Below, piece after piece: positions 50,460-57,806 of a DNA stretch of 64,000 nucleotides. Position 1 is the first letter of the stretch; each line of letters begins with the position of its first letter. Position numbers and translations under genes: made by a program. Under the pieces are notes generated by a model. That model made no database searches. It was not told the origin of the DNA and saw only the letters and a list, made by a program, of their open reading frames with translations. The stretch is from Romanomermis culicivorax. Its lineage: Eukaryota; Nematoda; Enoplea; Mermithida; Mermithidae. The stretch spans positions 1-64,000 of the forward strand of contig CAWUHX010000122.1 in assembly GCA_963922205.1 (NCBI GenBank), in the 5' to 3' direction.

Positions 50460-53400
50460 TTGTCAGACCAATTTCGTCAAATTGAAAAGGAAGCAAAAAG
50501 CCAAGTTTTGAACACCCGAAAAATGATCCACCCTGACCAGATCGATCAAATCGTTAGACATTCCATTGAACATGTTGTTGACGACAGACTTAGGGGTCTA
50601 GAGGACCGGCTAAGAGATGTTATTCCTGGTCAAAATGCCCCAAATCGTGAAATAAATACAGTGTTGAATGATATCCGCCTAGCCAATTTCAGGAACAACC
50701 CATTCGTTCCCATCAGATCCCCACCCCTATTTTCCGGTTCTTTTGGTCAAAATTTTTTGGACTGGATAAAAAATTTTGAAACCTTCCTCACCTTTCAAGG
50801 CGTCAAACCTGACGATGAAGAAATAAGGAAAGCCTGTTTCGAGTCCTACCTTTCCGGACCTGCTCTAGCCACCCTGGATGATCTGAGGCTAAGACAGAAC
50901 CCTCCCACCACATACGAGCAGTATAAAAATTGTTTCCAACGTTTATACCCCAATAACCGCGATTGTGATATTCATCAACAACTTTTGATGGAAAGAAAAC
51001 AAAGAAGTTCAGAACTTGGCACTGAATTCCTTTCAGAACTTAGAAAAATTGCACGGCAAGCTTTCCCAAATTTGTCCTTGGAGGATAGAGAAAACCTGAT
51101 AAAACCCATATTTTTACGAGGCTTAACGCCGGAAATTCGTGAAATTTTGAGATACCGTGAATTCGCAAACTTAGATGAAGCCCATAAGGCTGTCATGTAC
51201 GTAGAATCTCAACGAGCCCGACCTGGTTTCTCATCATCTATTCCCAGAATACCCCCCAATGACATGGTTGCAACAGTTACCCAAAGTAATATTGAACGTT
51301 CTTTACTTGACCTCACAGATAAAATGTCAAAACTTTTCGACCGAAAAACGACCCCTCCACCGGTTTCCTGCACTTATTGTGGCAAGAGCGGCCACTTGGA
51401 AAACGTGTGCCGCAAGAAACAACGAGACGACCAACGAAAAACCAGTTATCCCCGCAGGCCCAACACGTGGAAACCCGACACGGGTCACCGGCGGCCCTAT
51501 TCGGAACACCAATGGTCCAACCAAAATCCGCCCAAACCCCCAAATAATTTTGGCCATTCCAATAACAGCTGCTTTAACTGCGGCGAGCGTAACCATTTGG
51601 CCAGGCATTGCACAGCGCCACGGAAAAGTAAGTACCCATCCAATATTCACCAACAATCCTGCTCCCCAGATATTGCCGTCTCTTCCCCCCTCGATTTTGA
51701 TGATATAGAAATGTTCCTCCAATGTTCAGGACAACCGACAGCAGGCCACATCAATACGTTGTTTACGAAAAGCAACAACCCCAACCCAAAAAGTAAGTCG
51801 GTCCAGATGGCCATGACCGAAAATACCCAAACCACCCAACCACCCATCTCCTTGTTAAAAATTAAATTTTCCCCAAAATTGCAAAAATTGGGCCCTTATT
51901 TTTTTCAAGCAATTTTCAAAAATCCAAATCCGAAAAAGCCGAAAAAACCCACTCCCAACACCAATCAAGAAACGAGCCCTAGAACCCCAAGCCCTGCCCC
52001 ATCAGCTGAACGTCAACGGTTCCCATCACAATCATCGGCAGCGTCAGCCCAATCCACTCGCCCACCAACCCCCAAATCGCCGGCCGAATTTCAAGTTGAG
52101 ATCGTCTACCCAGACGATATGGAAGACGGTGAATATACCAAAGAATCCCCAAAACCCAATTTAACCCAGAATTCGTTTTTTGTTCAGGCGAGATCACCAA
52201 CGCAGCCTGAAGACACCCAACGCCGACTGAGGCGAAACGAAAAGTTTTGGCAACCCAACATGATTTCTTTTTTATGTTTCTTGTCGTTTTTTTTCGCGCC
52301 AATAAATGGCACATTTCAATTATGTGGTATGTCTAGGAGTGGCCATGCAATTGACATCCCGAAAAGTGTCCAATGTGAAGCCCCAAATTCCCCTGCCCAT
52401 CTCAGTAAAATAGTGGCCAATGTCTATATTCCAAAAACCCAACCAGATACCGCCCCTGCCTTCAAATGTCAAATGCGTACGAGAACTATTTGTACAAACA
52501 CGGGATTTTTCGGATCAAAAGGCATTGTCCTGGACTCCTCAAAAATTGCCCCAATTCCCGCGTCCGAGTGCAGAGAAGCATTTTTCACCAAAAGTTACCA
52601 AACAAAAAACTTGACCCACGTCTCCCCCGGTTTTTGGAGCACAGAAAACCCACTAAAAGTCGATTTTAAGTGGTGCTGTAGTGATCATTGTACTACAGTA
52701 ACAAATTTGATTATCGAAGAAGGCAATGTTGCCTCTTGGGACCCTGATCATTTGACCACCGATTTAGGCGACTCCGGCGGTTGCAAGCCCCTAGCCGGAC
52801 AGTGCACTCTCACTGATGGAATAATTTTGTGGGACGATACCAAATTCAAGGACACCTGTTCCCTCCAACTAAAAGGCACATATAACGGAACCCTAAGCGA
52901 TAATTATGTTGTCATAGACGCTATTCAGGGCGCATTTACCCTAAAGTCTGCTTACACTCAATGTTCCAAAATTGAAAAAGCCGTCCTAACCCACCAAGGA
53001 GTCATTTTAGTGCTTAAAAATATGACCCAACTCGCCTCATCAAATTCGGATGAAAATTCAGACCCTATCAACCCAGACCCAGTGAATGCGAAGTTAAATT
53101 TCTTAACACAAAAAATTTTGGACTTGGAATACGAAAATTTCCGAAATGTTTGGTCAGAATTGTGTCGTCAAGCCCAAAGATATCTTGACATCATTTGGCA
53201 ACTTTTACATTTTGACCCCACCCTTGGTGCCCGTGCATTTTTACATCGGACTGACATAATCGCCGAGTTTACTGGCGATGTTCTTACCATCTCAAAATGT
53301 AAATCCCTAAATGCCACAGAAATTTTTACCTCCCATAAAGTGAATGAAACGTGTTACAAAAACCTTCCCGTCAGAATTAATGATACACTTTGGTTCGTGA

Positions 53401-56400: not shown

Positions 56401-57806
56401 AACCCATGCCCATCAACAGTGTTTTAGAAGCAGAAGCTTCAGAAAACGAAGAAATATTGAAAAATTTCCGAGAACAGCAGCTTTGTGACCCTATCCTTCG
56501 GAAAATCAAAGAACAAATAGAAATCGGAGACCCTGTCCATGTTCAAAATTTCTCCCTCGAAAATGACTTGATTTATAAGCAGCAAGGCCCCCTCAAAAAA
56601 CTCTATGTACCCAGTGCTCTCCAACAAACTATTATCAAGGATAACCATGATAATAAGTTTTCCGGCCATTTTGGAATAAGAAAAACGATCAACCTTACCA
56701 AAAGAAAGTATTTTTGGCCGGACATGGCAAAAATGATCACTGATTATTGCCGATCATGCCACCCTTGTCAAGTGAATAAACCCACACACCATAGAATTAC
56801 GGCTAATCTGGTTCCCATCCAAGTCAAAGGCCCATTTGAAAGGGTAGGTGTTGATTGTGTTGGTCCCATGACCCTTTCTGAACATGGAAATCGTTTTATC
56901 ATCGTTTTTATCGATTATTTCACGAAATATGTTGAAGCTATAGCCACCCCCGATATTACAGCACTTACCGTTGCCAAAGCTTTTGTCGAAAAAATTGTTT
57001 GTAGACACGGGGCTCCCAAAATTTTGCACTGCGACCGTGGCACTGATTTTACTTCCATCCTCATGACCGAAGTAACTCGACTTTGTGAAACCAGAAAAGT
57101 CCACACTACCCCCTACCATCCCATGGCCAATGGCGAAGTCGAACGTGCAAACCAAACCCTTGTTGTCCGCATGCGGATGTATGTTGACGATTGGCATACT
57201 GATTGGGATGATCATCTCCCTTTTGCCATTTTTGCCACAAATATTAACCAAAATGAAAGCACTGGCTATTCCCCCTTTGAATTGTTATATGGTCGACAAC
57301 CGGACCTCCCGTCGAATATTTCTCGAACCCCACCATCGCCCTACGCTATAGACATGAACGATTATGTCAATGACGTCAAACATCATTTTCACACCGCTTT
57401 GACCGTTGTCCAGGACCGCATCAGAAATAGCCAAGCTCTTTATTCAAAAAAGTATGACATGAAAACCAACAACCACGAATATAAAGTTGGTGACCTGGTC
57501 CTCAAACCCGTCCAAACAGTAAAACAAGGACTAACGTCTAAGTTGGCCCCCCTACACCTTGGTCCCTACAAAATTATGCGGATATCCTACCCCAACCTCT
57601 GGATCTATAACCCCAAAACGGATCGAGAAGAGGCAATTCACGTCAACAATACCCAGCCGTATCATCCCAAAGTCAACGTCCGTTCAAATCAACCAAACGA
57701 TGAAAATCAACGACGTCCCGATCCAGAAAACGCCTTCCGCCGAGTTCAACGTAGCTCCACCCACCGTTCTGCTCGACCCAATTCGCCAGCTTCGATCGAA
57801 TTGTGA
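50460..57806 (+). CDS. Element B Gag-Env-Pro-RT-RNaseH-IN polyprotein frame
   Basis: The frame is open from 50391. The listed start at 50460 is TTG, and the first in-frame ATG is 50523 (residue 22), the safer start. The Gag domain is about 88-250. Two CCHC knuckles begin at 304 ([14 protein letters not shown]) and 371 ([14 protein letters not shown]). A Pro-rich linker runs to 600. An env-like module starts at M601 with a strong hydrophobic signal segment. Many Cys and NxS/T sites follow, and a membrane span lies at about 1135-1160. Retropepsin has DSG at 1265. RT has YLDD at 1695. RNase H has D1844. Integrase has an HHCC finger at about 2062-2103 and D2132, D2192 and E2228 (DX35E), then a GPY motif. 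No stops or frameshifts. The env family is not assigned: errantiviral F, phlebovirus-type and jingchuvirus-type glycoproteins are candidates. Confidence 0.92.
52186..52197 (+). promoter_or_regulatory. Candidate splice acceptor upstream of env-like module
   Basis: TTTTTTGTTCAG fits the nematode acceptor consensus. After it the first ATG is 52260, exactly the residue opening the env signal peptide. A spliced RNA from the 50329 donor would start translation at env and run on into pol. Confidence 0.5.

Follow-up and report, generated by a model that had tools for sequence, protein, structure and literature searches.

Introduction

For the env-bearing Metaviridae (Ty3/gypsy elements), a position of the envelope gene (env) downstream of integrase is stated as the rule (International Committee on Taxonomy of Viruses, ICTV). 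In Roo, Tas and Cer-7 the glycoprotein is located downstream of the polyprotein, and different sources of env are given for such elements, a phlebovirus for Tas and a herpesvirus for Cer-7 (PMC7642597). Env-like ORF3s downstream of pol were reported in a survey of bdelloid rotifers (PMC5408684), and FAST-like fusogens of other Ty3-type elements are found upstream of gag, and in certain Lepidoptera they follow pol (PMC11952523). Atlas virus from Ancylostoma ceylanicum (Belpaoviridae) is encoded as a single 2828-residue polyprotein without stops or introns (PMC9094657). A 2023 survey of Jingchuvirales in eukaryotic genomes listed two glycoprotein insertions in nematodes and stated that there was "no clear evidence" of Gypsy elements having captured such a gene (PMC10084718). 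Here we describe element B, a long terminal repeat (LTR) retroelement located in a 64,000-nucleotide stretch of the nematode Romanomermis culicivorax (assembly GCA_963922205.1, contig CAWUHX010000122.1, positions 1 to 64,000; "the window" in the following), which encodes Gag, a glycoprotein and Pol, in this order, in one open frame. No published gag-env-pol element was found in the literature searched, which did not take in a survey of gypsy elements with env (eLife, 2025).

Results

Element B Encodes Gag, Glycoprotein and Pol in One Frame

Element B is a complete LTR retroelement (window 49264–58878, forward strand). The 5′ LTR (49264–50296, 1033 bp) and the 3′ LTR (57847–58878, 1032 bp) are 99.4% identical, with five mismatches and one gap opening in 1033 columns, and both start with TG and end with CA. 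The element is flanked on either side by GACT, a 4-bp target-site duplication (49260–49263 and 58879–58882, ends read from the sequence). A sequence resembling a primer-binding site (PBS), TGGCGACCGTACC, starts 2 bases downstream of the 5′ LTR and was annotated by this position at 50299–50316 (TGGCGACCGTACCTATCC). The polypurine tract (PPT) AAGAAGGGAGG (57836–57846) directly adjoins the 3′ LTR.

By a mechanical rule for open reading frames (ORFs), the interior is open from 50460 to 57806 (2448 amino acids) with a TTG start. The first in-frame ATG is located at 50523, with a stop upstream at 50388, which yields a coding frame of 2427 amino acids (50523–57806) ending 40 bases short of the 3′ LTR. 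The open frame given in the preliminary description of this DNA is retained, and its start is better placed at this ATG. When the 1695 bases of the glycoprotein segment were shuffled singly, the frame stayed open in none of 1000 trials.

The chain was searched against profiles in four pieces, which gave the domain order Ty3_capsid with CCHC zinc knuckles, PF24664, aspartyl protease, reverse transcriptase (RT), RNase H and integrase. The capsid match (50796–51191; PF19259, E 3.5e-4) is below the cutoff with 20.5 against 29.1 bits; the region is 41% identical (E 1.3e-42) to the Gag of element A, a second element in the window, whose capsid is above the cutoff with 30.8 bits. The first zinc knuckle (51369–51410) was read from the motif and the second (51570–51611) is matched by PF00098 (E 1.1e-5). 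Pol comprises a protease with a DSGA motif (54213–54476; PF13650, E 7.8e-8), an RT with YLDD (55215–55697; PF00078, E 6.9e-37), RNase H (55959–56276; PF17917, E 6.9e-34) and an integrase with H2C2 and core domains (56607–57122; PF17921, E 1.6e-22, and PF00665, E 5.1e-9). A regular-expression check for the integrase HHCC motif was negative, which does not affect the H2C2 profile match. Among solved structures, the best match of the RT is Ty3 Gag-Pol (E 2e-46).

The Internal Segment Is a Predicted Class III Glycoprotein

The segment between Gag and protease starts with an internal signal-peptide-like stretch of 17 residues (52260–52310; hydropathy 1.67), continues with a Cys-rich ectodomain (52311–53861) and ends with a transmembrane anchor (53862–53918; hydropathy 2.82). 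Residues 273–437 of its 565 residues (53076–53570) match PF24664 (Monjiviricetes_fusion) with an E-value of 8.7e-16 and a score of 57.5 bits (cutoff 27). The profile is also above cutoff in element A and in the database proteins P0003, P0005 and P0006 described below, the match spanning the central part only. The structure predicted for the element B segment contains a central helix and paired fusion loops as in class III proteins: a long helix similar to domain III (53079–53213; model residues 274–318, from the alignment) and two candidate fusion loops located with the model, TGFFGS at a predicted hairpin tip (52500–52517) and FKWCC (52665–52679). Among the matches listed, the fold of the model matches gB; the structure matches of the glycoprotein are a mixture of rhabdo-like, chu-like, nyavirus and gB proteins. 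No protein named as an exogenous-virus glycoprotein was among the relatives returned by the sequence searches.

Profile and predicted fold support the assignment of the segment to the envelope-type glycoproteins of class III, and they rule out a non-envelope structural domain. The preliminary description had proposed an intact, young LTR element with an Env-like glycoprotein between Gag and Pol, in which signal peptide, Cys-rich ectodomain and anchor follow the zinc knuckles and precede the protease without a stop, and had suggested a search of the segment with hidden Markov models or structure prediction. The outcome of this search and the domain order agree with that proposal, as do the signal-like stretch, the anchor, the near-identical LTRs, the target-site duplication, the PBS-like site and the purine tract.

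The Gene Order Is Conserved in Relatives

Element A (322–9462, reverse strand), identified by ORF and profile searches, is a second single-frame Gag-glycoprotein-Pol element of 3046 amino acids with the same gene order. Its PF24664 match (5572–6006, E 2.7e-14) is located inside a whole glycoprotein segment at about 5122–6876, which is 42.7% identical to that of element B over its length. No LTR pair of element A was found in the window, and its 3′ LTR would fall at or past the window edge. The distance from its CCHC knuckle to the signal peptide is about 500 residues, more than twice the spacer of element B.

A search of proteins of about 825–2625 amino acids, scored on the glycoprotein alone, returned four relatives (P0003–P0006) from 4843 candidates. 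The match to the element B glycoprotein is found at residues 9–557 of P0003 (1424 amino acids), 652–1194 of P0004 (2499), 512–1061 of P0005 (1500) and 1–455 of P0006 (1044); these positions were assigned via identities and coverage and agree with the Pfam positions for three of the proteins. Each of the four carries a DxGx protease motif downstream, and the glycoprotein precedes the protease in all six chains (elements A and B and P0003–P0006). Gag is in frame with the glycoprotein in elements A and B, P0004 and P0005; P0006, from a 3133-base contig, begins inside the glycoprotein. No fusion with the glycoprotein after Pol was among the results of this search, which could have included them, a negative that rests on four hits.

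The glycoproteins of element A and P0003–P0006 are 31–43% identical to that of element B. Pairwise identities are 28–43% among seven sequences for the glycoprotein and 51–58% among four for RT-RNase H. Between elements A and B, identity at codon positions 1/2/3 is 46.6/53.1/29.8% in Gag, 55.7/66.7/29.3% in the glycoprotein, 54.9/67.9/28.9% in protease-RT and 63.1/69.9/33.9% in RNase H-integrase. All parts of the A/B chain, the glycoprotein included, show constraint by codon position, and the elements with a glycoprotein inside Gag-Pol form a lineage.

A glycoprotein profile search of 4894 candidates of about 310–990 amino acids returned a single protein, P0002. Glycoprotein scans of phage records, viral contigs and genome contigs, and an RT scan of viral contigs, gave no confirmed relative; they used few short patterns and are weak evidence of absence. 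Pol similarity was found in three Ty3-like loci (L001, L002 and L003), and no PF24664 was found in the ORFs searched, three of the six listed for L001 and four of the five for L003. L003 (160–9457), on a contig of a Limnohabitans metagenome-assembled genome, is a Ty3-like element with separate gag and pol and a further ORF without Pfam match, adjoined by an ORF with Tudor and RING-like domains. P0006, although a member of this retroelement lineage, is filed under a metagenome-assembled genome of Desulfobacteraceae and is likely a binning contaminant. When plasmid records were searched in translation for the RT, three matched, one labelled Wolbachia (48% identity) and two Bacillus (at most 32%). 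The former, NZ_CP087956.1 (5332 bases), encodes a retropepsin and an RT 48% identical to part of the Pol of element B, and looks like a eukaryotic retroelement within a bacterial record.

The Chain Is Predicted to Span the Membrane

The hydropathy of the four chains in which both Gag and the signal region are visible revealed no membrane-like stretch in Gag, and signal and anchor flank the glycoprotein. Likewise, no membrane-like stretch was found in three full Pol pieces nor in the protease-RT part of P0003. The simplest reading of this pattern is a membrane-threaded polyprotein, and it supports the topology suggested in the preliminary description, with Gag and Pol in the cytosol and Env in the lumen. 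For element B, a young LTR retroelement of Ty3 type, the open frame, the gene order, its recurrence in related elements and the homology of the glycoprotein are established, and the class III fold is a prediction. The full reading, in which the lineage carries this glycoprotein inside the Gag-Pol frame and the chain is threaded through the membrane of the endoplasmic reticulum with Gag and Pol cytosolic and the glycoprotein lumenal, we consider somewhat more probable than not.

For processing, stoichiometry, budding site and fusion activity, we infer the following course. The signal sequence, exposed after about 580 residues of Gag, would recruit the translocon, and signal peptidase would cut behind it, so that Gag keeps a membrane-embedded tail. 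The anchor would halt transfer, and Pol would become the cytosolic tail of the glycoprotein until Gag, glycoprotein and enzymes are released by the aspartyl protease of the element. In this way Gag, fusogen and polymerase could arrive at one patch of membrane in the same number of copies, and either budded particles or neighbouring cells might be fused by the glycoprotein. Overall, this would be a polyprotein of the flavivirus and pestivirus type grafted onto a retroelement. That the lineage builds its particle in the flavivirus way, with one membrane-threaded chain in which Env is cut from Gag by host signal peptidase and Pol is carried into particles as the part of the fusogen on the cytosolic side, is a tentative proposal to which we give nearly an even chance.

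Alternative Explanations

Several observations weigh against the membrane-threaded polyprotein. The structure model is middling (mean predicted local distance difference test, pLDDT, 61.9; predicted template modelling score, pTM, 0.34; residues 418–530 below 50), and cleavage, glycosylation and fusion are putative. The frame of P0003 (6278-base contig) opens just inside the glycoprotein without a signal peptide, and the link to Gag is not visible there; P0002 is a stand-alone relative of 536 amino acids with a different end; and the protease part of P0005 carries one further hydrophobic stretch. Others would fit separate expression of a glycoprotein-Pol protein, for which splicing or trans-splicing would supply a subgenomic mRNA or translation would start internally, at the signal peptide or shortly ahead of it, the common frame then being a matter of space economy. 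An internal start is possible in two of four chains, with an ATG exactly at the signal of element B (52260) and a Met 22 residues before that of P0004. The leader of element B contains a donor-like GTAAGT (50329–50334, consensus match only), and element A has pyrimidine-AG stretches near 6995–6999 and 6912–6914, about 55–140 bases upstream of its signal. Foamy viruses have a separate mRNA for Pol. Cer1, a Ty3-type element of nematodes whose gag and pol are not divided by a stop, yields a spliced product (PMC10309623). However, no ATG is present for about 70 codons upstream of the signal of element A at 6858, and no Met in the 64 residues preceding that of P0005. An internal start is thus not common to the lineage, and this explanation is weakened. 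By the same pattern, no pyrimidine-tract acceptor was found in element B at 52100–52262, and the scanned stretch of element A contains two GTGAGT but no GTAAGT, so that no splice signal common to both elements was seen; moreover, the product would still be fused to Pol. We regard separate expression by splicing or an internal start as unlikely, while giving it appreciable weight.

The class III fold might also have been kept and the entry role lost, the glycoprotein serving an intracellular particle in its structure, in cell-cell fusion or in membrane anchoring, and the element being a retrotransposon with a membrane-tethered Gag-Pol. A domesticated role was suggested for solo chuvirus glycoproteins in mosquitoes (PMC7642597). 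Yet conservation extends to the hydrophobic candidate fusion loops, the shared cysteines and the anchor, and the segment shows constraint, which makes such a loss quite improbable. An accident, be it the insertion of a viral glycoprotein into a single copy or a chimera of the assembly, is favoured by no observation and hardly credible, since the same order is present in element A and in four database proteins from other sources with 31–43% glycoprotein identity to element B, whose LTRs and target duplication are intact. The preliminary description had named an insertion in this single copy, or a non-envelope structural domain, as what would refute it; the latter is rejected above, and element A and P0003–P0006, with the glycoprotein in the same place, rule out the former.

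Further Features of the Window

Both LTRs of element B contain short tandem arrays of 40-bp and 38-bp units (49829–50118 and 58426–58701), which are perhaps promoter or enhancer repeats. Protease and RT are separated by a spacer of about 250 residues in element B (window about 54670–54830), element A, P0003 and P0005. All profile matches there are weak and under cutoff (dUTPase in element B, E 0.21; spumavirus A9 protease in P0003, E 4.5e-4, P0005, 1.3e-3, and element A, 0.089), and the spacer is possibly a decayed or linker domain. Two cholinephosphotransferase-like exons are located at 20597–21220 (reverse strand), with an intron that was deduced from the match gap and ends in TTTTCAG, and an EB-module protein is encoded at 32418–32951 (forward strand). 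The intron end and the EB module are compatible with a nematode host; TTTTCAGR is not enriched across the window (10 found, 11.5 expected).

Discussion

The lineage of element B, in which a glycoprotein of class III type is placed inside Gag-Pol, shows that an envelope can be captured within a polyprotein and then retained. How a retroelement might package both Env and Pol with neither splicing nor frameshifting becomes testable in this lineage. If true, assembly in a flavivirus-like manner would be a third way to deliver Gag, Pol and Env, beside frameshift or readthrough Gag-Pol and spliced Env. The lineage also adds a case in which a glycoprotein of this class was captured by a Ty3-type element, for which the 2023 survey had "no clear evidence" in Gypsy elements (PMC10084718).

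The polyproteins of flaviviruses and pestiviruses are arranged as capsid, internal signal, envelope, anchor and enzymes in one membrane-threaded chain. Unlike element B, they belong to positive-strand RNA viruses without reverse transcription, and no sequence relationship is claimed. Atlas virus is, like element B, a nematode LTR element with an uninterrupted polyprotein and a captured viral glycoprotein, but it belongs to BEL/Pao and carries a class II phlebovirus-type Env at the C-terminal end (Gc-like part at residues 2330–2828) and not between Gag and protease (PMC9094657). Tas from Ascaris is also a nematode LTR element, and a weak resemblance of its env to gB of herpesviruses, a class III protein, is reported (PMC9094657). 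This env is located downstream of the polyprotein, and the study that places it there names phlebovirus as the source for Tas and herpesvirus for Cer-7 instead (PMC7642597). Anakin from mosquitoes shares a chuvirus-type class III glycoprotein with element B, but is a member of the Pao lineage of BEL/Pao and not of Ty3 (PMC7642597). Membership of element B in nematode BEL/Pao was rejected by motif and solved structures, with no direct comparison to a BEL/Pao RT: its RT motif is YLDD whereas YVDN is reported for nematode belpaoviruses (PMC9094657), and Ty3 is the best solved match. It was likewise set apart from Troyka, which has CG...CG termini and a 3-bp duplication, as opposed to TG...CA and 4 bp in element B.

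Cer1 of Caenorhabditis, like element B, is Ty3-type without a stop between gag and pol, but has an extra ORF after pol, and the sections covered of its description mention no glycoprotein inside gag-pol (PMC10309623). With errantiviruses such as gypsy, which are env-bearing Metaviridae, element B shares Ty3/gypsy Gag and Pol and LTRs with a PBS after the 5′ and a PPT before the 3′ LTR. The Pol order is protease-RT-RNase H-integrase with a Ty3-type RT, and the Ty3-type capsid with CCHC knuckles is recognized directly in element A and through the identity to element A in element B. It is in the position of the glycoprotein, upstream of protease instead of downstream of integrase, that element B departs from the rule for env-bearing Metaviridae.

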